A stretch of 64,000 nucleotides of DNA from Bacteroidota bacterium (GTDB lineage: Bacteria > Bacteroidota > Bacteroidia > Bacteroidales > JAAUTT01): NCBI GenBank assembly GCA_021779665.1, contig JAJYAG010000007.1, positions 1-64,000 on the forward strand, given 5' to 3'. This document shows positions 36,522-49,824 of the stretch, piece by piece. Both the position numbers and the translations under genes were made by a program. Below the pieces are notes generated by a model. The model saw only the letters and a list, made by a program, of their open reading frames with translations, ran no database searches and was not told the DNA's origin. Positions within the stretch are counted from its first letter, which is position 1. Each line of letters begins with the position of its first letter.

Positions 36522-38567
36522 TTAAATTTTGTTCACCTTAATGTTTATTGTTTCTCCAGTTTCCAGACTGATCCTCACCAGATAAACGCCAGTTGTCAGA
36601 TGCTCAATATTTTCCTCAACCAGGTTTGAGGACAGGTTGTTTTCATATAACATACGTCTTCCACGTATATCGGTAATTTCAACCCCAACAATCAAATATT
36701 TTCCACTTTCAATTCTGATGTTTGTTCTCGCAGGGTTAGGATAAACATTTATCTGACTATTATTTGTTGTATTTGAAACGCCAAGAGTTGTGATTGTAGA
36801 AACCGACCAGCTTGAAGCCAGGCTGTTATTTGAATTGAGGTCGGTAAGACAGAGGTAATATCCTGTACCATTTGCCTGCGCAGGCCAGGGTGAGTTGTTT
36901 TGATAGTTTACACTATCGATCGTGTTTCCAAAAGCATCGGCAAGAACAAGGCGTTCTGTACTGTCGGACAAGCTTCGCGTAAATTCGCCAAACGGACTGA
37001 ATCCATAAAACTGTAGAAAAGAAATTGCATTATTCGCGATATAAAGCCTCTCTCCGGCAGGTAAGGATGAATTTGCAGGAAACTGATAAGTTAGGCCCAA
37101 ATCGCGGAAATGAACTCCTGTTAAATCAGCCGTCTGACTACCGTTGTTTGCTATTTCGAGAAACTCAAGATCTTCGCTCTTGTGTCCCAAAGCATCTTTG
37201 GGGTTGTAATGGATTTTTGAAATTGCCAGCGTCGGAACTGTGGGATTGGCGCAATTTCCGTAATTATTGAGGTTACTGTTTAACCAATTTATTCTGTTCT
37301 GAATCCACCACTTCATATTTTCAATATTCTGAAGATAGCTGCCTCCATTACCCCATCGTGTGTTTTCGCGAGGTAAAGCTTCAGAAATCTGTTTAAGAAC
37401 CTTGTCTATTTTTGCGGAGATGGAAGTGTAGCTAAGCGGACCATTGCCTCCGCTCAGGCTGTTCCACCGGCGGGCCAGATAGCACCTGAATGTTGGAGTG
37501 TCGTATAAGTCTTTCCAGAATTTTGCACCCGTGTTATCGCCGTTATTAAACTGCCAAACATTATAAAAACTGCGGTTATATCCCCATATAAACAAGTCGT
37601 TGCCATAGGTGAGGTCGTAATCCCAAATGGGGCCGGCTCTGAGTTTTCCACCTCTTTCTTTATGAAAATACGTGCTGTACTGATAGGAATCGGCATTGGA
37701 CGACAATTCGCACATAATCATATAATCGACAAAACTGGGTATGTCAATGATTGAAGGGTACCCATTTACAATCGAACTGTTTTGTGATGAAGCAGTACTC
37801 TGTAAATTTGTAAACTGCGATTTAATGTAGTTGATTTGTTCCCAGGTAATTTCATTAGATTTTGGGTTTTCGAACAAAAATTCAGTGGTTTTGCTGTACG
37901 ATGACATGGTCCATGCAACCGGATCGCCTCCTGTTGTTTTATCGGCTTTTATAATATACCCTCCTGTAATTTCGGGATTGGTATTGTCGTACCTGGTCAT
38001 TTTGGAGATGTTGACCCTGCCTTTATCAATCTTAATTTTCTCCATAAAAATGTACAATCCTTTGTAATCGCCGTTAATAATCACTTCACAATATACACAG
38101 CGGGGAGCGTAGTTACCCATGCTCCGGGCAAGATCGTACGATAGAAAATTACGGATTAACGATGGGTCGAAAGCAATCGAATTCAGCACCCAGTCATTTT
38201 CAGGAGGCATTCCCAAAATACTTACATTGTTATTAGTAACATTGTCGCTCATATAAGTAGTGAGGCCGTAAGGTTTTTTAGGCAGTAACTGCGATGAAGA
38301 ACCTCTTGTTTCAATGCCGATGCGGCCATTGTAATTCAGAAACGCAGCTGTGTTTTGATCTGCCACATAATTTCTGGAGCTGTCGGGACGAAAAATGATT
38401 TTCATACTGGCACCCACTTTGTATGCATCGGGTATTTCGCGCGGTTGTCCGGTTCCTGAACTCAGATCGGTATTGATGATCACAATCGGTAAGTTGCTGT
38501 CCGTTAAAGTTTGAGTCCGGGCAAAAGTTAAGTTAAATATAAGAAGTAGAGGTAAAAAGTGCTTCAT
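36522..38567 (-). CDS. Secreted CotH-family protein with lamin-tail domain and T9SS sorting tail
   Basis: This 681-residue protein has a signal peptide (about 1-20). The CotH kinase-like domain covers about 25-440, with IGIETRGSSSQLLPKKPYGL, GDYKGLYIFMEKIKIDKGRV, GGYIIKADKTTGGDP and AGPIWDYDLTYGN, the last corresponding to the metal-binding Asp region. A lamin-tail domain follows (about 450-590), and the end (INVYPNPARTNIRIESG to INIKVNKI) is a T9SS sorting domain. The first CotH protein in the window (15417-17930) has the lamin-tail domain ahead of the kinase domain instead. It leads an operon with LysE-type and SGNH genes. Confidence 0.88.
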   Translation of the reverse strand: MKHFLPLLLIFNLTFARTQTLTDSNLPIVIINTDLSSGTGQPREIPDAYKVGASMKIIFRPDSSRNYVADQNTAAFLNYNGRIGIETRGSSSQLLPKKPYGLTTYMSDNVTNNNVSILGMPPENDWVLNSIAFDPSLIRNFLSYDLARSMGNYAPRCVYCEVIINGDYKGLYIFMEKIKIDKGRVNISKMTRYDNTNPEITGGYIIKADKTTGGDPVAWTMSSYSKTTEFLFENPKSNEITWEQINYIKSQFTNLQSTASSQNSSIVNGYPSIIDIPSFVDYMIMCELSSNADSYQYSTYFHKERGGKLRAGPIWDYDLTYGNDLFIWGYNRSFYNVWQFNNGDNTGAKFWKDLYDTPTFRCYLARRWNSLSGGNGPLSYTSISAKIDKVLKQISEALPRENTRWGNGGSYLQNIENMKWWIQNRINWLNSNLNNYGNCANPTVPTLAISKIHYNPKDALGHKSEDLEFLEIANNGSQTADLTGVHFRDLGLTYQFPANSSLPAGERLYIANNAISFLQFYGFSPFGEFTRSLSDSTERLVLADAFGNTIDSVNYQNNSPWPAQANGTGYYLCLTDLNSNNSLASSWSVSTITTLGVSNTTNNSQINVYPNPARTNIRIESGKYLIVGVEITDIRGRRMLYENNLSSNLVEENIEHLTTGVYLVRISLETGETINIKVNKI

Positions 38568-39083: not shown

Positions 39084-39824
39084 ATGAAATCAATTAAGTT
39101 TTTACCGGCCTTAGTTCTGGCCGTTGTTCTCTTTTCATCGTGCGAAAAGGATGAAGATAATTCAGTTGTAGAAAATTTTAACCTCCTGACAGTTCCTTCG
39201 TCAGGTTATTGGAATGGCTCTGATAATTCCGGCAATTTCAAGGTTAACGAAATTGCTTTCCCGAATACATACACTGCGGCATGGGGTACCTGGAGCGGAT
39301 TTGCCTACTCAAACAAGCACGACGTTAAAACATCCGGCTATGGAAATCAGTATTCCAGCTATGTATTAAAGGATTCGGCAAGCAGCAATGTTTTTGTTGT
39401 TGCATATCCCTATTATACTACCAATACAATTGAATTTGATAATGTTGTTTCCGATGTGCGCTTTAAAGTTGCGAATGATACCTATACAGCTTTATCCATG
39501 AAATCGGGCGATATGTTTTCGAAAAAGTTTGGCGGTACCTCCGGCAACGATCAGGATTGGCTGAAACTGAGAATTATTGGAATTAGTGATACAGGAACGC
39601 CAACTGATTCTGTTGATTTTTACCTGGCCGATTACCGTTTTGCCGACAATAAGCAGGATTATATTCTTAATGAATGGAAGTCTGTTAACCTGGATAAGTT
39701 GGGCAAAATCAAAAAAATAAAATTTGCTCTCAGCTCCACTGATAATGGCCAATGGGGGATGAATACTCCCGGCTACTTCTGTCTGGACGATATAGCATAT
39801 AAACCTGTTGCAAAAACAGAATAA
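39084..39824 (+). CDS. DUF4465-type surface lipoprotein, candidate cobalamin-binding protein
   Basis: This 246-residue protein has a lipoprotein signal (VVLFSSCEKDED, Cys20) with a following acidic stretch typical of surface-exposed lipoproteins in Bacteroidota. SGYWNGSDNSGNF, WGTWSGFAYSNKHD and TPGYFCLDDIAYKP are features of DUF4465 domains, a jelly-roll type fold. It is the first gene after the cobalamin riboswitch. Some Bacteroides cobalamin loci encode B12-binding surface lipoproteins named BtuH; this gene could be a functional counterpart, but I cannot confirm the homology. A direct test of binding would settle it. Confidence 0.8.
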   Translation: MKSIKFLPALVLAVVLFSSCEKDEDNSVVENFNLLTVPSSGYWNGSDNSGNFKVNEIAFPNTYTAAWGTWSGFAYSNKHDVKTSGYGNQYSSYVLKDSASSNVFVVAYPYYTTNTIEFDNVVSDVRFKVANDTYTALSMKSGDMFSKKFGGTSGNDQDWLKLRIIGISDTGTPTDSVDFYLADYRFADNKQDYILNEWKSVNLDKLGKIKKIKFALSSTDNGQWGMNTPGYFCLDDIAYKPVAKTE

Positions 39825-39896: not shown

Positions 39897-40928
39897 GTGA
39901 AAAGATTTTTATCAATATTCATTGCGTTTTTAGCCTTCGCTCCGACCTTCGGTCAGTTTGCGCCGGCAGCAGGAGAAACAGGATCTACAGCCATACACAA
40001 GGATGATGTATCCTTTAAAGGCTGGGCAAAGACCTGTAAGGTAATCAGGGGGTTTATCAACATCAGCGATACTTCCAAAACATTCACCCAAAATCCGACG
40101 ACTTCAAACCGGGCTTTTTTTGGCACCGAAGCCATGGCAATTGGTCAACCCGGCGGCCCGCTTGATTGTATAAGTCTTGGCGATGGTGGTTCAGCAGTTC
40201 TTACGTTTGATTTCCCTGCTAAAAATGGTCCGGGTCCCGATTTCGCAATTTTCGAGAATGGAATTAAGGAGCAGGAATCGCCTTTCCAGTATTTTCTCGA
40301 ACTTGGCTTTGTGGAAGTAAGTACAAATGGGAAAAGATATGTGCGTTTCCCTGCTGTTTCCAATACCTTGGCAAAAGATCAGATTACAAGCTTTGGCCAG
40401 ATCGACCCGACTAAAATCCATAATTTCGCCGGGAAATATGTTGCCAACTACGGTACACCGTTCGATCTCGAAGATATAAAAGACAGTACCGGTATTAACC
40501 TCGACAGTGTCAATTATATCCGCATTGTTGACGTGGTTGGAAATGTCGATCCGAAATTTGCCCGTTACGATTCCAAAGGTCAGGTAATTAACGATCCTTT
40601 TCCGACCGAATTCTGGACAGGAGGTTTCGACCTCGATGCAGTGGGTTTGATCAATATAAATCGGGAAATAAGTAACTACGAATCTTTGAATAAAGGATCA
40701 TTTAAGGTTTATCCAAATCCGGCTAAATCTGGTGAAGCCATTTCTATTGAAGGAGTTGACGATGCTGCAATCCGGCTTTGTTCTCAAGCGGGGAAAGTAT
40801 TAGGCGACTGGAAGGTAAACCGTCAGGAGGTCCTTACAATGAATCTTCCCGAGCTCGCCACAGGTTTGTATCTTTTAACAGTGAGGTCTTCAAAAAATAT
40901 TCAAACAATTAAGTTATTGGTTAAATGA
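39897..40928 (+). CDS. Secreted surface protein with T9SS sorting tail in the cobalamin operon
   Basis: It starts with GTG at 39897 and has 343 residues. A signal peptide (about 1-19) precedes a domain of about 230 residues with GTEAMAIGQPGGPLDCISLG, GGSAVLTFDFPAKNGPGPDF, AIFENGIKEQESPFQYFLEL and GKYVANYGTPFDLEDIKDS. This looks like the beta-rich 'cell surface protein' found in Bacteroidota cobalamin loci. The C-terminus (FKVYPNPAKSGEAISIEG to IKLLVK) is a T9SS sorting domain, so the protein is surface-delivered. The stop codon overlaps the start of the TonB receptor gene by 4 bases. A role in B12 capture is inferred from location. Confidence 0.78.
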   Translation: MKRFLSIFIAFLAFAPTFGQFAPAAGETGSTAIHKDDVSFKGWAKTCKVIRGFINISDTSKTFTQNPTTSNRAFFGTEAMAIGQPGGPLDCISLGDGGSAVLTFDFPAKNGPGPDFAIFENGIKEQESPFQYFLELGFVEVSTNGKRYVRFPAVSNTLAKDQITSFGQIDPTKIHNFAGKYVANYGTPFDLEDIKDSTGINLDSVNYIRIVDVVGNVDPKFARYDSKGQVINDPFPTEFWTGGFDLDAVGLININREISNYESLNKGSFKVYPNPAKSGEAISIEGVDDAAIRLCSQAGKVLGDWKVNRQEVLTMNLPELATGLYLLTVRSSKNIQTIKLLVK

Positions 40929-42874
40929 GAAGGTTGTTGGCCATATTGTTTGTTATCTGTCCTTTTGCGAAAGGGATTGGACAATCGTTGGCTGACACCG
41001 TTAGGCTCCACGAAGTGTTTGTGACTTCGGCACGACAAGTTACCGAACGGGCTTTTTATATCAAAAGCATCGATTCAATTGTTCTTGCCAATACTTCCGG
41101 TACTGATCTGTCGGAGCTGTTACAGAAGTATTCCTTTCTTTATATTAAATCTTATGGTGCCGGAGGATTGTCAACAGCATCCTTTCGGGGTACTTCCGCA
41201 TCGCATACCCAGGTGTTATGGAATGGTTTCAATATAAATTCGCCCTTGTGGGGACAAACCGATTTATCCATGATGCCAGTGTTTTTTACCGACGAAGTTT
41301 CGTTGTTCTATGGCAGCAGCTCCCTTGCTAAAACTTCAGGTGGTTTAGGTGGCTGTATAAGTTTGAACAATTCGCCCGACTGGAATGCAGGAACTCAGCT
41401 TTCGCTGGCACAAACTGCAGGAAGTTTTGGCTATTATCTTTCGCAGTTGAAGGCCGGTTTTAGCCGCAACCGTTTTGTGAGTAGCACAAGGTTGTTTTAC
41501 GACAGGGCTAAAAATAACTTCCGCTACTACGATAATGCAAGCGGGCTTTTTGATTATATAAGGCAGAAAAACGCGGATTATCACAAAGAAGGTTTTCTTC
41601 AGGAAGTTTATTATAAAATCTCGTCACGGCAATTTGCAGGGTTGAAAGTTATGAGCGTCTGGGCCGATCGTAACCTGCCTCCAATAATGAGTTTCAGCGG
41701 AGCCAGCAGATACGAAAACCAAAAGGATAATATGCTTAATATAATCGGAGAGTGGAAATATTACAGTGCCAACAGCAATTTGACCTTTCACTCCGGATTA
41801 ATCAGAAATTCGTTAAGCTACATCTTAACCAATACCAATCCGGGCGGCACTTTCGTGAATTACGATACCGAAAACAGGAGTAATGTCTTTGCCAATAAGC
41901 TGAACTTTCAGCATAATTTCACGCCTAATTCGGTGCTAAAAACCTTTGTTGAAGCCAATTTTACTTCGGCCAGGTATTCGGACCTGAAAGAAAATACCGG
42001 TTTCGATGTTCAGCAAAGTGATATTAATTTGCAATCGTCGTTTCACCGCATTTTCAATCCAGCAGTTTCGGGTTATCTTCTGGCTCAGCAAAAAATGCTC
42101 GATGGTAAACTGATGCCTTTTATTGCTGCTGCTGGTCTCGAAATTCAGCCATGGATTAACCAGGGACTTACAATCAGGGCAAATATGGGCCGAAACCTGC
42201 ATGTTCCTAATCTGAACGACCGTTATTTCAATCCCGGCGGAAACCATGATCTCAAACCCGAAACAGGTTACCAGGCCGATGCAGGTGTGCAGTTCGTTAA
42301 AACCCTGAATAATGTTCGCTTTCAACTCGAAGTTACCGGTTTTACTGCCTGGATTAACGACTGGATATTGTGGCACCCGAGCGAATACAGGTATTGGACT
42401 GCCGATAATGTGCAGCAGGTTTTTTCGCGCGGAGCTGAAGTAAATGCCGGCCTAAAAGGTGATTTGGGTTCGGTTACATGGCAGCTTAAGGGAAACTATG
42501 CGTTTACGCGGACTACAAATGAAGAGAGTGAATCGCCGTCAAAAGGCATGCAGCTGATTTATATACCCAAAAACGTTTCGAACTTACAGCTGTTTCTCGA
42601 AAAGGGAACTTATTCTTCATCGATTTCATTTCATAATACAGGTTCGCGTTATACATCAACAACCGAGAGTGAAGCGTATCAGCTTCCGTCGTATTTTCTC
42701 CTGGATTTTGCATTGGGTAAGAAGTTCGATATTAAGCAACATGCCCTCAATTTCAATCTTAAACTCAACAATATCCTTAATAAACAATATCAGGTAATTG
42801 AACAACGCGCCATGCCGGGAAGGAATTTTCTGGTTGGGCTGAGTTTTAATTTTTCTAAAAATGGTAATCAGTAA
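40925..42874 (+). CDS. btuB: BtuB-like TonB-dependent outer-membrane receptor
   Basis: This 649-residue protein has a signal peptide (about 1-20), then a plug domain (TVRLHEVFVTSARQVTERAF, LLQKYSFLYIKSYGAGGLST, SFRGTSASHTQVLWNGFNIN, about 22-150), then a beta-barrel ending NFLVGLSFNFSKNGNQ. No N-terminal carboxypeptidase-like domain is present, so it is of the classical rather than SusC type. It would move cobalamin through the outer membrane with TonB energy. The operon with a cobalamin riboswitch, BtuG-like lipoprotein and ABC genes strongly supports the substrate. The stop codon overlaps the next gene by 14 bases. Confidence 0.9.
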   Translation: MRRLLAILFVICPFAKGIGQSLADTVRLHEVFVTSARQVTERAFYIKSIDSIVLANTSGTDLSELLQKYSFLYIKSYGAGGLSTASFRGTSASHTQVLWNGFNINSPLWGQTDLSMMPVFFTDEVSLFYGSSSLAKTSGGLGGCISLNNSPDWNAGTQLSLAQTAGSFGYYLSQLKAGFSRNRFVSSTRLFYDRAKNNFRYYDNASGLFDYIRQKNADYHKEGFLQEVYYKISSRQFAGLKVMSVWADRNLPPIMSFSGASRYENQKDNMLNIIGEWKYYSANSNLTFHSGLIRNSLSYILTNTNPGGTFVNYDTENRSNVFANKLNFQHNFTPNSVLKTFVEANFTSARYSDLKENTGFDVQQSDINLQSSFHRIFNPAVSGYLLAQQKMLDGKLMPFIAAAGLEIQPWINQGLTIRANMGRNLHVPNLNDRYFNPGGNHDLKPETGYQADAGVQFVKTLNNVRFQLEVTGFTAWINDWILWHPSEYRYWTADNVQQVFSRGAEVNAGLKGDLGSVTWQLKGNYAFTRTTNEESESPSKGMQLIYIPKNVSNLQLFLEKGTYSSSISFHNTGSRYTSTTESEAYQLPSYFLLDFALGKKFDIKQHALNFNLKLNNILNKQYQVIEQRAMPGRNFLVGLSFNFSKNGNQ

Positions 42875-43979
42875 AAATAAATATAAAGTCAACCTGAGCA
42901 CTGTTGAAGGGTGGCTGAGTTTACTTCTCGTTTTCCTCTTATTTCCTTTTTCCTCGTGTGAAGACGAAGCTCCTTTGAAACAATTCCAGGTTAATGAAGG
43001 TGTTTTTATTTTGAATGAAGGAAATTATACCTACGGCAACGCCGCTCTTTCTTTTTACAATCCTGATAAAAAGGAACTTACTAACCGGATTTTTAAGAAT
43101 ACAAATGGATTTCCCATTGGAGATGTACTTCAGTCGATGACAATTGCCGATTCCCTTGCCTATCTTGTGGTGAATAATTCGGGAAAAATCCTGGCAATAA
43201 GCATCAACACTTTCAAACATAAGGGAACCATTTCGGGGTTAGTATCGCCGCGACAAATGCTTGTTTTAAGTGCTTCAAAGGCATACGTGAGCGATTTATA
43301 CGACAAGTCTGTTTCCATTGTTAATCCGCAGACTTACACCAAAACCGGAAGTATTCCTCTTGGTAAAAGCAGCGAAGCCATGCTGAAATGGGGTAATTAT
43401 GTTTTTGTTACCAACTGGTCGAAACAGAATACACTCCAACGGATTGATATAGCCACCGATAAATTTGTCGACAGCATGGTTGTTACAAAACAGCCCAACA
43501 GCATGGTGCTGGATAAGAATAACAAAATCTGGGTTCTGAGCGATGGCGGTTTAGCCAGTTTGCCCGGCGGTAAAGTAAAGGCTTGTCTCACAAGGATTGA
43601 CCCCGAGACTTTTAAAATTGAAAAAGAGTTTGTCTTTCCCGACCTGAATGCTGCTCCAACACGTTTGTGCATGAATAATGGAAAGGATTCTCTTTATTTT
43701 TTAAACGGCTCCTGGGGAAGTTCTGTTTCCAACGGCGGTGTTTATCGAATGTCGGTAAGTGATTTAGCTTTGCCGGCTTCACCCTGGATTCCTGAAAGCG
43801 GAAAGCTGTTTTATGCTTTGGGGGTTGACCCGCGGAACGGCAATGTTTACGTGAGCGATGCCGTTGATTACATGCAGCCGGGTTGGGTTTACCGATACAG
43901 CAGAGAGGCTGTGTTGCTCGATTCTTTTAAGACAGATATCATCCCTTCTGCTTTTTGCTTTAAATACCAGAAATTATAA
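42861..43979 (+). CDS. btuG: BtuG-like beta-propeller surface lipoprotein
   Basis: This 372-residue protein has a lipoprotein signal (LLFPFSSCEDEAP, Cys33). After it, a YncE/DUF5074-type beta-propeller occupies the rest: NEGVFILNEGNYTYGNAALS, VVNNSGKILAISINTFKHKG, SPRQMLVLSASKAYVSDLYD, LSDGGLASLPGGKV and NVYVSDAVDYMQPGWVYRYS. BtuG of Bacteroides is a propeller that sits on BtuB and binds cobalamin with extreme affinity. This gene overlaps btuB by 14 bases, the same partnership. The Cys-Glu-Asp-Glu start fits a surface export signal. Confidence 0.88.
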   Translation: MVISKNKYKVNLSTVEGWLSLLLVFLLFPFSSCEDEAPLKQFQVNEGVFILNEGNYTYGNAALSFYNPDKKELTNRIFKNTNGFPIGDVLQSMTIADSLAYLVVNNSGKILAISINTFKHKGTISGLVSPRQMLVLSASKAYVSDLYDKSVSIVNPQTYTKTGSIPLGKSSEAMLKWGNYVFVTNWSKQNTLQRIDIATDKFVDSMVVTKQPNSMVLDKNNKIWVLSDGGLASLPGGKVKACLTRIDPETFKIEKEFVFPDLNAAPTRLCMNNGKDSLYFLNGSWGSSVSNGGVYRMSVSDLALPASPWIPESGKLFYALGVDPRNGNVYVSDAVDYMQPGWVYRYSREAVLLDSFKTDIIPSAFCFKYQKL

Positions 43980-44087
43980 CTTTACCAATCGTAACTTAAT
44001 TGTAACCTCGTTTTGAGACCCAGGCTCAATATTTCCGGTATCTTATATCCGCATAAAACAGTGCGGCATGGATCTGAATTTATCCTG

Positions 44088-46226
44088 ATGTTTCTTTTTT
44101 CAATTTGTTTTGGTCCTAAGCTTGCTGCCCAGCAAACGGTTTCGGGGGTTCCTTTCAGCATTATTAACAATTTACCTGCGCCTGATGTATATGAGGTTAT
44201 GCCTGATTATCGGCAGGTTAAAAAAGTGATGCGCGCAGATGAGGCTTCCGGCAGACTGAAACGACTGGAGTTTGCGCATGTCTTCGATCTTTCATTTAAT
44301 CCTGAGAATTCGGGCGAATGGCAAACCTTAAATACAGGTGACAGACTATGGCGTCTGGGGGTTGTTTCCAAAGGAGCCTATTCTCTGAACTTGATTTTCG
44401 GAATTTTCAACCTAGAGCCTGAGGTGAAAGTTTATGTGTATTCACCGGATAAGAAATACTTGCTTGGGGCATATTCTTCGCAAAATAACAATGCGGCAGG
44501 TAAGCTTGCCATCGAACCTTTGCCTGGCGATTCGCTGGTAATTGAAATGAACATTCCAGCTTCGGTTTCAAGTTATGGAGATCTCGAATTAACCCGAGTG
44601 GGGCACGATTTTATGAATGTTTTTGGCACATCATATAAAAGTTCGTCGGGTGTGGCAGTTTCTGGAGCATGCAATGCAGATATCAACTGCGACGTTGGCA
44701 TTCCGTGGCAACGTGAAAAGTATGCTGTTTGCAAACTCATTATCGATGCCCGCGATATCTGCACCGGTACGCTTGTTAACAACACCGCAAAGGACAGGAT
44801 ACCTTACCTGATTACGGCTAATCACTGCATCGATACCACCACCAAAGCTGCTGCCACGGTTTTTATTTTCAATTACGAAAAGTGGAAATGCGGAGGTCAG
44901 GATGGGCCTAAGCCTGTAACACTTTCAGGCTCATATCTGATAGCAACAACACCCAATCTCGATTTTTCGCTTGTACGCTTATATGAGATGCCCATTTTCA
45001 GTGCGTATCCTTACCTTGCCGGCTGGAACCGGTCGAACATTGCACCGTTGAGCAGTTCTACAATTCATCATCCCAATGGCGATTTTAAAAAGATCTCCAT
45101 CGATGAAAATCCTGCTGTGAGTGCGACCTATGCCGAGGATTACAATCCCAATACCCATTGGCTCATTAACAAGTGGGAGGTGGGTACAACCGAACGCGGA
45201 TCTTCCGGTGCGCCGTTGTTTAATCAGTATCACCAGGTAGTTGGCGATCTTACCGGAGGCGATGCTACATGCTCGTCCTCGGTGAGAGATTATTTTGCCA
45301 AACTTTACAATTCGTGGGCCGATTATCCCGAATGGAAACGGCAGCTCCGTCACTGGCTCGATCCGCTTAACTCCGACAGTGTAAGCATTACTGGTTTAGA
45401 TCCTTATGAGCTCGAAAAAGCTTCGTGCGATACTTTCAGAACTGTTCCGGCTTCTGAGCAGAAGCAACTTTATACCACCGGTCTGGGATGGGGAAGTTAC
45501 AGTGGCCACAATTCGCTTTTAATTACTCAGTTTGCCGAAAAGGTTGATGTGGGCGGAGTTCTGAAAATACCGGGATTTTATTTGGATGTAGCCAAAGCTT
45601 ATAATGCTTCACCCTTGTCGTTCATTACCATAAAACTTTGGAATGGAGGCGATATCCCCGGAGATTTAATAACTTCCCGAGCGGTTTACCTGAAGGATTT
45701 GACACCCAATAAGCTCAATTACCTGGGATTTGATTCGACAATTGTAGTAAATGGCCCGGTTTACCTGGGTTATTCAGTAAATTACTCGGCTCCGCAGGAT
45801 ACTTTTTCTCTTTATCAGGCACAGGATCGCGGATCAGGTGGCTTCTCAGGAATGTTTGTCTATAAGGACGGAAATTGGGTCAATATTTCGGAGGTCACCT
45901 CGCCTAAAATTTACAGTTCTTTATCTGTTGGCTTGATTTCCTGCAGTCTGATCAACAAAGTGCCTGAGATCAGCCTTCAGTCGCATAAGCTGTATGTTTA
46001 TCCCAATCCTGTTGAACGGGGTATTTTGAAAGCTGAGGTGCCTTCTGTTGAAAATATTGTGGTGAGCGTTTACGATTTGACCGGAAGATCTGTCAGAGTG
46101 AATTGGATAGCCGAAGGAAACGGAATTCAGCTGAATACTTCCGGGTTGAGTTCGGGAACATATATTTTAAAAGTGATTATTCCCGGCGAAGGGATTTACA
46201 ATGCTAAGTTTTTGGTAATAAGATGA
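44088..46226 (+). CDS. Secreted trypsin-like (lysyl-endopeptidase-type) serine protease with T9SS sorting tail
   Basis: ATG at 44088 gives 712 residues with a signal peptide (FLFSICFGPKLAAQ); a TTG start at 44013 would add 25 residues. An N-terminal beta domain (about 25-175) precedes the peptidase S1 domain (about 190-430). The triad is ITANHCIDT (His), TPNLDFSLVRL (Asp) and TERGSSGAPLF (Ser), as in lysyl endopeptidases, with several cysteines. A further beta domain and a T9SS tail (LYVYPNPVERGILKAEVPS to KFLVIR) follow. It lies inside the cobalamin operon, overlapping the BtuF-like gene by 4 bases. It may process surface partners or free protein-bound cobalamin; this is inference. Confidence 0.88.
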   Translation: MFLFSICFGPKLAAQQTVSGVPFSIINNLPAPDVYEVMPDYRQVKKVMRADEASGRLKRLEFAHVFDLSFNPENSGEWQTLNTGDRLWRLGVVSKGAYSLNLIFGIFNLEPEVKVYVYSPDKKYLLGAYSSQNNNAAGKLAIEPLPGDSLVIEMNIPASVSSYGDLELTRVGHDFMNVFGTSYKSSSGVAVSGACNADINCDVGIPWQREKYAVCKLIIDARDICTGTLVNNTAKDRIPYLITANHCIDTTTKAAATVFIFNYEKWKCGGQDGPKPVTLSGSYLIATTPNLDFSLVRLYEMPIFSAYPYLAGWNRSNIAPLSSSTIHHPNGDFKKISIDENPAVSATYAEDYNPNTHWLINKWEVGTTERGSSGAPLFNQYHQVVGDLTGGDATCSSSVRDYFAKLYNSWADYPEWKRQLRHWLDPLNSDSVSITGLDPYELEKASCDTFRTVPASEQKQLYTTGLGWGSYSGHNSLLITQFAEKVDVGGVLKIPGFYLDVAKAYNASPLSFITIKLWNGGDIPGDLITSRAVYLKDLTPNKLNYLGFDSTIVVNGPVYLGYSVNYSAPQDTFSLYQAQDRGSGGFSGMFVYKDGNWVNISEVTSPKIYSSLSVGLISCSLINKVPEISLQSHKLYVYPNPVERGILKAEVPSVENIVVSVYDLTGRSVRVNWIAEGNGIQLNTSGLSSGTYILKVIIPGEGIYNAKFLVIR

Positions 46227-47485
46227 GAGAAATGGATAGAAAGTCGACAGACGACAGACGACAGACGACAGCAAGAATACAGAAGACAGAACAAAGACGA
46301 GGGATCGCTGCTAACATTGCCGTGGACCGTGGACTGAGGACTTTGGACTTACTTTTTTTAATCCTTTCCTGCTTCATTGTAATTTCGTGCAACCATTCGG
46401 GAATAGAAGCAAACACTGCTCAACAAGCTGTTGCCGGTAAGCTTGAAAATACTTATGCAAAAGGCTTTGCAATTGAAAAATATAGTGATTTCAAAATTCT
46501 CACTGTTTATAATCCATGGCAGCACGCCCAGGGGGTTGAATATAAGTATGTGCTTGCTGAAAATCCGGCTACCGTTCCCGATAGTCTTAAGAAGTTTGAT
46601 ATTATTCAAACTCCTGTAAAAAGGGTTGTTTGTCTTTCAACTACGCATCTGGCGTTTATCAAGGAACTGAACGGGATGGATGCTATTTGCGGTGTTTCGG
46701 CTCCCGAATTTATTTACGACTCTCTGATCCGTGAGCGGGTGAAAGCTGGTAAAATCAGCAATGTAGGATACGATCAGGCCATGAATATTGAGACCATCAT
46801 CAGCCTCAAGCCCGACTTTGTAATGGCTTACGGCGTTGGCAGCGAGTCGTCGGGGCAGTTTCAGCGGCTGAAGCAGCTGGGCATAAAAGTGGTGTTTAAT
46901 GCCGAATATCTGGAGCAAACACCGCTGGGAAAAGCCGAATGGCTCAATTTTGTGGGAGCTTTTTTCAACAAGGAAGATTCTGCCGCGCTGTTATTTAAAA
47001 AGACTTCTGAAACATACATGGAACTGGCTCAAAAAGCTGCTTCGGTAAAAGAGAAACCCATGGTTTTAAGTGGTCTCCCTTGGAAAGGTGTCTGGTACGT
47101 TCCGGGAGGAAAATCGTATGCTTCGAATTTTATCTACGATGCTGGTGGCGATTACTTATGGAAGGAGGACCGGGGTTCCGAGTCTATCCCGCTTTCGCTG
47201 GAAACGGTTCTGGAGCGTGCCAACAAAGCTCAGTTGTGGATTAACCCCGGATCTGCTGCAAGCCTGAGTGAAATGGCCATGCCTGATTCACGGATCAAAA
47301 CCATCCGACCTTTACAGGAAAAGAAAGTTTTCAATTTCAACCGACGCATGTCTCCTGGTGGCGGAAACGATTTCTGGGAGTCGGGCGTTGTTCACCCCGA
47401 TTTGATTTTAAAAGATTTGATAGCAATTTTTCATCCTGAATTGATACCAAATCATACCTTTGTATATTATCAACTCCTAAACTGA
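46223..47485 (+). CDS. btuF: BtuF-like cobalamin ABC-transporter substrate-binding lipoprotein
   Basis: This 420-residue protein has a helical-backbone ABC binding fold of the BtuF/FhuD class: VKRVVCLSTTHLAFIKELNG, IETIISLKPDFVMAYGVGSE and LKQLGIKVVFNAEYLEQTPL. It would receive cobalamin in the periplasm and pass it to BtuCD. The start at 46223 overlaps the protease stop codon (ATGA). Residues 4-42 are encoded by degenerate repeat sequence, placing an unusual basic stretch before the lipoprotein signal (LLFLILSCFIVISC, Cys56). A TTG at 46343 in the repeat tract would give a normal short signal (LDLLFLIL). Either the real start is there or the extension is tolerated. Confidence 0.85.
   Translation: MREMDRKSTDDRRQTTARIQKTEQRRGIAANIAVDRGLRTLDLLFLILSCFIVISCNHSGIEANTAQQAVAGKLENTYAKGFAIEKYSDFKILTVYNPWQHAQGVEYKYVLAENPATVPDSLKKFDIIQTPVKRVVCLSTTHLAFIKELNGMDAICGVSAPEFIYDSLIRERVKAGKISNVGYDQAMNIETIISLKPDFVMAYGVGSESSGQFQRLKQLGIKVVFNAEYLEQTPLGKAEWLNFVGAFFNKEDSAALLFKKTSETYMELAQKAASVKEKPMVLSGLPWKGVWYVPGGKSYASNFIYDAGGDYLWKEDRGSESIPLSLETVLERANKAQLWINPGSAASLSEMAMPDSRIKTIRPLQEKKVFNFNRRMSPGGGNDFWESGVVHPDLILKDLIAIFHPELIPNHTFVYYQLLN
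46243..46350. repeat. Degenerate repeat tract within the 5' end of the BtuF-like gene
   Basis: The unit acgacag occurs in four near-perfect tandem copies at 46243-46271, then gaatacagaagacagaac, and gtggaccgtggactgagg with actttggact at 46322-46349. The latter is of the same GTGGACTGT family found at 22590, 24000 and 31305. Confidence 0.75.
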
Positions 47486-47491
47486 TAAGCT

Positions 47492-47764
47492 ATGGCTAGT
47501 AAAAGAATTTTAAAAAAGAGCATCAATAACCTCACTTACGATTTAGTATCGGAATGCTTTACGTACCGTCACTTTCATCCCGATCAGAATTCCGGGATCA
47601 ACCAGATTATCCAGGATGTTGTTAAAACCCGTAACGAGCTTATCTCAAAAGTAAATCAGGCTCCGAAGGAGAAAAGTGAAAACGCCGCTTATTTCAAGGG
47701 AGTGGTTTCGGAGATGCGCGCCATGGTAAACCAGCTCGATAAAATCGATAAATTAAAAAAGTAA
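47492..47764 (+). CDS. Small conserved-looking protein in the cobalamin operon
   Basis: This 90-residue protein begins MASKRILKKSINNLTYDLVS and is rich in charged residues, probably all-helical, with no signal peptide or membrane segment, so it is likely cytoplasmic. It lies 6 bases after the BtuF-like gene and 7 bases before the permease gene, so it is translated within the operon. I do not recognise the family by name. Its place inside a riboswitch-controlled transport operon suggests a role in cobalamin uptake or use, which is inference. Confidence 0.7.
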   Translation: MASKRILKKSINNLTYDLVSECFTYRHFHPDQNSGINQIIQDVVKTRNELISKVNQAPKEKSENAAYFKGVVSEMRAMVNQLDKIDKLKK

Positions 47765-47771
47765 ACTTTTA

Positions 47772-48803
47772 ATGCTTCCCGGTTCTAAAACCTTTGTCCG
47801 AACTTTTGTCTGGCTGAGCATTTTACTTTTAGTGCTGTTTTTGCTCAACCTTGTATTAGGACCGGTAAAAATTCCTCTTAAAGAGGTTGTAAGTGCCCTC
47901 TTCACCGGCAATGCTTCGCGTGAGGAGTGGACTACCATTATCCTTGGTTTTCGGGTACCAAAAGCCTTGACGGCTATATTGGCAGGTGTAGCTTTGAGTG
48001 TCAGCGGGCTGCAGATGCAGACCATTTTTCGCAATCCATTGGCCGGGCCGTATGTTCTGGGTATCAGCTCGGGCGCCAGTCTTGGAGTTGCCGTTGTGAT
48101 ACTAGGATATGCTGCATTTTTTGGATCTGCTATGAACGCCTGGGCCGGGAAATGGATGATAGTACTTGCCTCGTGGCTGGGAAGTGGTTTGGTGTTACTG
48201 CTCATTATGGCGGTTTCGGTCCGCATAAAGGATATCATGACCATCCTTATCCTGGGAATGATGTTTGGAAGTATCATCTCGGCAATTGTGAGTGCTTTCC
48301 AGTATTTCAGCGACGAAGCCATGCTGAAATCGTATGTGATCTGGACCATGGGCAGTGTTGCCAATGTGAGCGGCGACCAGATTTATATTTTTTCGCTGTG
48401 TATACTGGCTGGCCTTGTAATCAGCCTCCTAAGTGTCAAATTTTTGAATATGTTACTGTTGGGCGAGAATTATGCTCAAACGCTGGGGTTGAATATCCGC
48501 ACCGCCCGCCTGATGATTTTTTTAAGTACCAGCATTCTTACCGGCACTGTCACAGCGTTTTGCGGACCTATCGGGTTTATTGGCATTGCGGTGCCTCATC
48601 TTTGCCGCATCCTGCTTCGTACCGACGATCAGAAACTGCTGATGTACACCTGTATTCTTGCCGGCGCTGCTGTTATGCTTTTAAGCGATACGCTCTCGCT
48701 GCTTCCCGGCAAGGGGACAATTCTGCCTTTGAATACGGTTACTGCAATAATCGGTATTCCCATTGTGATTTACATTATCATGCGAAACCACAAAGTAAGC
48801 TAG
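47772..48803 (+). CDS. btuC: BtuC-like FecCD-family ABC permease
   Basis: This 343-residue protein has about ten membrane segments and FecCD-family motifs: GFRVPKALTAILAGVALSVS (about 58-77), GLQMQTIFRNPLAGPYVLGI, LNMLLLGENYAQTLGLNIRT (the coupling helix region) and CGPIGFIGIAVPHLCRILLR (about 260-279). This family forms the membrane channel for siderophores, haem or cobalamin. The riboswitch and neighbours select cobalamin. The ATPase gene begins after a single base. Confidence 0.92.
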   Translation: MLPGSKTFVRTFVWLSILLLVLFLLNLVLGPVKIPLKEVVSALFTGNASREEWTTIILGFRVPKALTAILAGVALSVSGLQMQTIFRNPLAGPYVLGISSGASLGVAVVILGYAAFFGSAMNAWAGKWMIVLASWLGSGLVLLLIMAVSVRIKDIMTILILGMMFGSIISAIVSAFQYFSDEAMLKSYVIWTMGSVANVSGDQIYIFSLCILAGLVISLLSVKFLNMLLLGENYAQTLGLNIRTARLMIFLSTSILTGTVTAFCGPIGFIGIAVPHLCRILLRTDDQKLLMYTCILAGAAVMLLSDTLSLLPGKGTILPLNTVTAIIGIPIVIYIIMRNHKVS

Positions 48804-48804
48804 C

Positions 48805-49824
48805 ATGGAAAGGGAAACCATTATTGAAATGAAAGGCCTTGTTGTGGGGTACAGGCGCAAAAACCAGGCGGTTCCTGTAATGCGCTTTCCTTCCATTAAA
48901 ATTGAAAAGGGCGATTTCATTGCTGTTGCCGGACAAAATGGAATTGGGAAAAGTACGCTGATCAAAACACTTATTCAGCTTATCCCTGAAATTGAGGGCG
49001 AAATACTGCTGAAAGGGAAATCTGTTAAATTTTACTCCCGAACTGCTCTGGCTTCGATTATCAGCTATGTATCGACCGAAATTGTTCACAACCAGCAGAT
49101 GACGGTTCGCGATCTGGTTACTTTTGGACGCTATCCGTATACCAACTGGTTTGGTAAAATTGAGAAGGATGATTTGAAAATTGTTGACGAAGCCATAGAA
49201 TTGCTCGAACTGCAGCATCTGGCAGGCCGGAGCATCGACGAAATAAGCGATGGAGAACGTCAGCGTACCATGATAGCCCGGGCACTTGCCCAGCAAACCG
49301 AAATCATGATTCTGGATGAGCCAACGGCTTTTCTGGATCTTCCGCATAAGCACGAGATTGTTAATCTCCTTGGATGGTTGTCGCGTAAATTTAAGAAAAC
49401 AGTGATTTTCACCACGCACGATTTGGGTATCGCCATCCGTGAAGCCGATAAGTTATGGTTACTGTCGGGCGATGGCTTTTTTCATGGAAGTCCTGAAGAT
49501 CTTATTTTGAGCGGAACTGTTTCCAGGACTTTTAATACTTCCAAAGTTAGCTTCGATAACCGGAAGGGCGAATTTACCATAAAAAAGGAGCTGCGGCCTT
49601 TTATTTATATTTCAGGGAAAAGCAGCGCGGTTTACTGGACAAAAAATGCCATTGAAAAAGATGGATTTACGGTGCTTGACAAAGAATCGGAAGGTTTTCC
49701 GTCTATTGCTGTCCTGCCACAAACTGACGGATATGAATGGAAGTTAGCGGATAAAGGCAACGTAATTCTTTTCAGATCAATAGCAGAACTGAGGGTATAT
49801 ATCAAAGAGAATTTCCTTCAATAA
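48805..49824 (+). CDS. btuD: BtuD-like ABC-transporter ATPase with C-terminal extension
   Basis: This 339-residue protein has Walker A GQNGIGKSTLI (about 46-56), the ABC signature ISDGERQRTMIARAL (about 147-161), Walker B EIMILDEPTAFLD (about 167-179) and the H-loop TTHDLGIA. It powers import through the permease encoded one base upstream. The last 85 residues (from about 255, FTIKKELRPFIYISGKSSA to ELRVYIKENF) form a domain absent from typical BtuD, so this protein is about 80 residues longer than the usual 250-260. The function of that tail is unknown; it may regulate the ATPase. Confidence 0.92.
   Translation: MERETIIEMKGLVVGYRRKNQAVPVMRFPSIKIEKGDFIAVAGQNGIGKSTLIKTLIQLIPEIEGEILLKGKSVKFYSRTALASIISYVSTEIVHNQQMTVRDLVTFGRYPYTNWFGKIEKDDLKIVDEAIELLELQHLAGRSIDEISDGERQRTMIARALAQQTEIMILDEPTAFLDLPHKHEIVNLLGWLSRKFKKTVIFTTHDLGIAIREADKLWLLSGDGFFHGSPEDLILSGTVSRTFNTSKVSFDNRKGEFTIKKELRPFIYISGKSSAVYWTKNAIEKDGFTVLDKESEGFPSIAVLPQTDGYEWKLADKGNVILFRSIAELRVYIKENFLQ

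Follow-up and report, generated by a model that had tools for sequence, protein, structure and literature searches.

A T9SS-exported, lysyl-endopeptidase-like protease encoded inside cobalamin uptake operons of Bacteroidales, with a possible part in cobamide release

Why would an operon for vitamin B12 import carry the gene of a secreted protease? The question is raised by a 64,000-nucleotide stretch (hereafter the window, meaning the whole of the DNA analysed) of a 6.9-Mb Bacteroidota draft genome in 305 contigs, for which a preliminary description had placed a lysyl-endopeptidase-like protease within a cobalamin uptake operon. That placement is borne out: nine genes lie on a single (forward) strand behind a cobalamin riboswitch (RF00174, 38769–38986, 80.2 bits, E 3.8e-18), the one RF00174 match in a search of the entire genome, with btuB, btuG, btuF, btuC and btuD around the protease. 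In order, they encode a DUF4465 lipoprotein of the BtuJ family (39084–39824; PF14717, 1.1e-50), a 343-aa secreted protein with a T9SS tail (39897–40928; Por_Secre_tail, 1.3e-8), a BtuB-like TonB-dependent receptor (40925–42874; Plug domain PF07715, and TIGR01779 at 8e-25, under the TIGR01779 cut-off), a BtuG-like surface lipoprotein with a DUF5074 beta-propeller (42861–43979; PF16819, 4.2e-26), the T9SS-exported serine protease of lysyl-endopeptidase fold (44088–46226; Trypsin_2 3e-9, Por_Secre_tail 2.6e-9, TIGR04183 2e-12), a BtuF-like substrate-binding lipoprotein (46223–47485; PF01497, 4.4e-20), a conserved 90-aa protein that matched no Pfam or NCBIfam family and has homologues in many related operons (47492–47764), a BtuC-like permease (47772–48803; PF01032, 2.9e-72) and a BtuD-like ATPase (48805–49824; PF00005, 8e-30).

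The gaps from riboswitch to btuD measure 97, 72, −4, −14, 108, −4, 6, 7 and 1 bases, and these genes likely form one transcript. A candidate internal promoter ahead of the protease (43955–43983), matching TTG-N19-TAnnTTT, which we take to be the relevant consensus, was rejected, since the window total of such matches is at chance level (9 versus 7.43 expected); sigma-70 matches in the operon are likewise at chance level (23 versus 21.4 expected), and terminator-like matches number 18 against 13.0 expected (s.d. 3.5). On its other side the riboswitch adjoins a divergent gene for a CotH-kinase protein with lamin-tail and T9SS-tail domains (36522–38567). The 343-aa protein has a weak LIC_13355-like stretch and orthologues beside btuB in three further loci (L044, L045, L079), and is possibly another cobamide-related surface protein. 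Metabolically, the genome holds a partial match to the domain of B12-dependent methionine synthase (MetH) and no match to CbiD or CbiC, which suggests that it probably depends on imported cobamide; DUF5074 likewise has a single match over cut-off in the genome. B12 auxotrophy is probable for the source organism, in which one uptake locus was detected.

The protease stop codon had been described as overlapping the start of the BtuF-like gene, and at the level of open reading frames it does, through ATGA at 46223–46226. The true btuF start, though, probably lies further 3'. The BtuF reading frame of the window opens with an extra N-terminal stretch of about 35 codons of short imperfect repeats (46223–46345; GACAGAC..., GTGGACCGTGGACTGAGGACT) that is absent from most relatives, in most of which the lipoprotein signal follows directly from the start codon, so that the real start may be about 100 bases downstream; the repeat seems to have been inserted after the stop codon of the protease, ahead of the signal peptide of btuF. 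Genuine 4-base protease/btuF overlaps occur in seven relatives. At its other end, the protease itself may begin at an upstream in-frame GTG (44061), which, in a by-eye reading with the start codon uncertain, gives a more classical signal peptide.

Structurally, the 712-aa protein consists of an N-terminal beta domain (about residues 56–178), a protease domain (190–440), a lectin-like beta-sandwich (445–622) and a sorting tail (634–712), the last being a T9SS type A tail that scores 46.9 bits against a TIGR04183 cut-off of 23. The catalytic triad and T9SS tail previously reported are thus both present, the triad as H246, D292 and S373, and the lysyl-endopeptidase likeness is upheld by sequence and by predicted structure. 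The best PDB sequence match is Achromobacter protease I (3.2e-31), and an AlphaFold2 model built from an alignment of 38 sequences (mean pLDDT 88.5) superposes over residues 190–441 on three lysyl endopeptidase entries with Z of 37.5–38.0 and an rmsd of 1.9 across about 250 residues, the next structural match being DegP at Z 20.1; Foldseek also returned the lysyl endopeptidase kind (E 3.9e-22). In our numbering of the sequence alignment, D401 falls on Asp225 of Achromobacter protease I, which we take to be the Asp of the S1 pocket. The Trp169/His210 pair of that enzyme, whose role there we presume, is not conserved: the sequence alignment places Tyr at the Trp169 position, and the His210 position is Thr389 in the window protease and T, S, I or R across the 47 btu-linked rows analysed below. 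Cleavage after lysine is therefore likely rather than certain. The triad and Asp401 are kept in all 47 of these rows (window included) and in three linked cases targeted later; since the triad residues are also kept in 121, 121 and 120 of 121 unlinked proteases, this conservation says nothing in favour of a B12 role.

The lectin-like domain is confidently modelled (pLDDT 91.1). Phage baseplate proteins head its structural matches (Z 15.9); carbohydrate-binding modules are among them, as is the lectin-like domain of Cwp84, a surface protease of Clostridioides difficile (Z 15.3, rmsd 2.4, 150 residues). We had considered this part of the window protease as a B12-binding domain and dropped the idea, as its structural matches are lectin-like; no DUF4465 structure is among the matches listed, which by itself excludes nothing. 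It is missing from four linked loci (L044, L045, L053, L064) and so is not needed for linkage to btu genes. Neither the N-terminal nor the C-terminal domain of the protease matched Pfam at E up to 1. Elsewhere in the same genome, on another contig, the protease domain has one more relative (35% identity), while a third match covers the tail only.

To what extent does the association hold beyond this genome? We mapped the neighbours of the 60 top-scoring loci in a sample of 149 genomes of the order, of 20 loci found on searching 395 genomes across the phylum (19 of these loci outside the order), of 20 picked lower-scoring loci in the order (L203 gave no record), and of 80 loci from named genomes that were found with an alignment (A2), a single protease protein as query having given no match there. 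Protease rows were open reading frames scoring more than 380 bits against a profile built from the window protein and its matches, and the 185 records were merged to 178 distinct proteases by collapsing near-identical ones; linkage meant btuB, btuG, btuF or btuC within 4.5 kb on the same strand, with thresholds chosen after the first gene maps. Linked loci numbered 14 of the 60 top-ranked in the order, none of the 20 phylum-wide, none of the 20 lower-ranked and 35 of the 80 from named genomes. The possibility that btu genes adjoin this protease in the present genome only is thereby set aside: 46 of the 178 other distinct proteases are linked, as are three extra cases (G072, G084, G088) chosen because btuF lay near a protease match and kept outside the tally of 178. 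The protease has matches in at least 114 of the 149 order relatives and BtuF, at E up to 1e-30, in 92, and linkage is found in at least 18 genomes from 11 families (G000–G004, G010, G011, G128, G018, G134, G026, G139, G042, G047 and G075, plus the three extra cases). This is a lower bound, because loci were fetched selectively (the top 60, 20 lower and three near btuF) among the matches listed. Within the genus of the window all five sampled genomes are linked, and the proteases closest to that of the window come from uncultured Bacteroidales. A secreted lysyl-endopeptidase-like gene inside a B12-import operon is a feature of many environmental bacteria related to gut Bacteroides.

Wherever it is linked, the protease lies after btuB-btuG and before btuF: among the 46 there is no opposite-strand btuB, btuG, btuF or btuC, no upstream btuF and no downstream btuG. 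Spacing is tight, the protease–btuF gap not exceeding 50 bp in 32 of 40 cases (more than 3 kb in four) and the protease–btuG gap staying within 250 bp in 20 of 24. In L226, L227, L230 and L239 a gene of about 1030–1230 aa stands between protease and btuF, encoding a TPR protein in L227 and L239. Among the three extra cases, one protease ends 19 bp before btuF (L339), and in the other two loci (L337, L338) a second T9SS-tailed gene intervenes; its product, of 612–618 aa, is by eye redoxin-like and is encoded directly before btuF (L337:8642-10498, L338:9631-11469).

Riboswitches accompany many of these operons. Apart from the window, 22 loci have RF00174 ahead of the operon, namely L035, L044, L075, L079, L082, L084 and L088, together with seven of seven and eight of nine loci in two further sets, the one miss being L285, where btuB runs off the contig. 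In 19 of the 22, nothing on the opposite strand and no other block of genes stands between riboswitch and protease; in the exceptions, L044, L226 and L230, opposite-strand ORFs or other genes intervene. One locus counted as unlinked, L267, reads riboswitch, divergent TonB receptor, protease. Where the protease instead opens the unit, no riboswitch stands beside it (none of seven and none of four, the latter L053, L064, L076 and L080; in L301 one lies about 7.8 kb away), so B12 control is not indicated for these protease-first units. A cultured strain that carries the linkage, Prolixibacter bellariivorans ATCC BAA-1284 (L241), has the order protease-btuF-btuC-btuD and likewise lacks a riboswitch close by.

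Evolutionarily, linked rows cluster on the protease tree. With the first 15 linked rows the label needs 5 changes, where shuffled labels average 14.2 and none of 500 shuffles came out as low; a single clade for these 15 is not rejected (AU p 0.658), the tree constrained to one linked clade outscoring the unconstrained quick tree by 12.86 log units. The proteases of G072, G084 and G088 fall in a separate clade, and a single clade for all 18 linked proteases was rejected (AU test, p=2.4e-6, on 53 rows of our choosing), from which it follows that the association was gained repeatedly, or is old and was repeatedly lost. In a FastTree phylogeny of 179 rows the linked label needs 14 changes. Linkage can be lost, as is shown by unlinked rows (Maribellus, Sunxiuqinia, L225) that fall within linked groups; Maribellus and Sunxiuqinia are close relatives, and Marinifilum is a more distant unlinked one. 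Overall, the btu–protease association appears to have arisen more than once, or to be old with many losses.

What might the protease do there? We regard it as an evenly balanced proposition that it is a dedicated accessory of cobamide uptake, freeing protein-bound cobamide at the cell surface. In such a scheme it would be expressed under B12 starvation, as the riboswitch at the operon head suggests, leave the cell by the T9SS and work at or near the surface, a location we infer, where it would cut proteins that carry or trap cobamides, such as corrinoid enzymes from lysed cells or the binding proteins of hosts or competitors; DUF4465/BtuJ and BtuG would then capture the freed cobamide, and BtuB and BtuFCD would import it. 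A protease in an operon of this sort would most simply serve to release cobamide from proteins, much as Fus releases the iron of ferredoxin. Consistent with a dedicated accessory are the fixed gene order, the tight btuF and btuG gaps, the lack of opposite-strand cases, the riboswitches, the clustering of linked rows, the second linked clade, the lysyl-endopeptidase fold with its intact active site and the probable B12 auxotrophy, while the 121 of 178 unlinked proteases, the protease-first units without an adjacent riboswitch, the absence of linked loci in the phylum-wide and lower-ranked sets and the replaced Trp169/His210 pair argue against it. The fuller proposition is more tentative, and we lean slightly away from it: that T9SS-exported proteases of lysyl-endopeptidase type, recruited into btu operons at least twice or retained in them from an early ancestor onwards, cut cobamide proteins outside the cell, open a B12 pool beyond the reach of binding affinity, and so form the cobamide counterpart of protease-assisted iron and haem piracy.

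The main rival to cobamide release is that the protease acts on its surface neighbours (BtuG, DUF4465/BtuJ, the 343-aa T9SS protein or vesicle cargo), processing them, shedding them or turning them over, and thereby tunes B12 capture. Such a role would suit an enzyme whose operon also encodes surface lipoproteins and a second T9SS protein, and the DUF4465 proteins of Bacteroides thetaiotaomicron are reported to work on vesicles (PMC12751083). Moreover, for 11 more of the 178 proteases the sole marker nearby is a DUF4465 gene, convergent in 10 cases, so that the two genes face each other end to end at −11 to 606 bp (L253, L272, L278, L282, L296, L300, L085, L262, L250, L083); several of these loci are in Marinilabiliaceae-type genomes, and L253 has a thioredoxin-like gene after DUF4465. 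However, the 343-aa protein and DUF4465 are missing from most linked loci and protease-first units retain btuF(CD) without adjacent btuB or btuG, which leaves no constant single surface partner, and we consider neighbour processing rather unlikely.

From a nutritional perspective, the enzyme could instead be an ordinary digestive protease supplying peptides, whose place in the operon is inherited or reflects B12 limitation as a signal of general starvation. The family is large and common, as its spread through the order attests, and those 121 proteases have neither a btu nor a DUF4465 neighbour; what digestion alone would not lead one to expect is the fixed order and tight spacing of the linked set, or a second protease clade that is linked too, and we judge this account improbable. 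That the protease shields BtuB by destroying bacteriocins or other BtuB ligands, or destroys competitors' B12-binding proteins, we think very improbable, since 22 of the 46 linked cases have no btuB or btuG seen within 4.5 kb upstream (some being contig-limited) and the PADLOC defence library gave no match, even though many loci co-encode protease and BtuB under one riboswitch and E. coli BtuB is described as a toxin entry point (PMC3050690, available text).

If cobamide release by the protease is real, protease-assisted cofactor piracy would extend from iron and haem to B12. The B12 scavenging of the Bacteroides studied so far relies on very tight binding proteins; BtuG2 draws B12 away from intrinsic factor through its affinity for the vitamin, without cutting (PMC6143338). 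Corrinoid is abundant in soil but seems to be sequestered there, and the expectation voiced in PMC11287211 is that microbes have means of freeing matrix-held corrinoids. A conserved secreted protease in an uptake operon is a concrete, testable candidate for such release.

How, then, does this locus compare with known systems? The preliminary description knew of no cobalamin uptake system with its own protease, and within the open-access literature (most subscription papers and all preprints fall outside this scope) we likewise found no description of a protease in a cobalamin operon. The Bacteroides cobamide loci (BtuB-BtuG, BtuH, BtuJ/DUF4465) share with the window the cobalamin riboswitch, BtuB, DUF5074 BtuG, DUF4465 and BtuFCD, and the available portions of PMC6143338, PMC8941943, PMC12751083 and PMC13398666 yielded no protease belonging to the system. 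DUF4465 proteins are reported there to bind B12 (PMC13398666, PMC12751083), and the words protease and peptidase are absent from the main text of the DUF4465 paper that surveys genome neighbourhoods. In Flavobacterium psychrophilum a cobalamin riboswitch precedes a TonB receptor, the accessible part of PMC9723704 mentioning no protease there. Proteases in iron import are already known: in Fus/PqqL systems, the gene of a TonB-dependent receptor accompanies that of a protease, which serves nutrient uptake by processing a protein that bears a cofactor (PMC6793856, PMC6071955), with Fus freeing ferredoxin iron (PMC6793856). That enzyme, however, is an unrelated M16 metalloprotease that acts in the periplasm, for iron, after the intact protein has been imported (PMC6793856), whereas the window encodes a trypsin-fold serine protease exported by the T9SS from a cobalamin operon with BtuG and BtuFCD. 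With Achromobacter protease I and Lysobacter LysC (PDB 1arb, 4nsv, 4nsy) the window protease has the fold, the triad and the Asp225 equivalent in common. It differs from them in its added N-terminal domain, lectin-like domain and T9SS tail, and in the replacement of Trp169/His210. Secreted T9SS proteases that free haem from haemoproteins are exemplified by gingipains. In PMC9331221 such proteolytic release of haem in T9SS bacteria is a suggestion of the authors, with no link to cobalamin; the likeness lies in extracellular proteolysis that frees a protein-bound tetrapyrrole for a TonB receptor.
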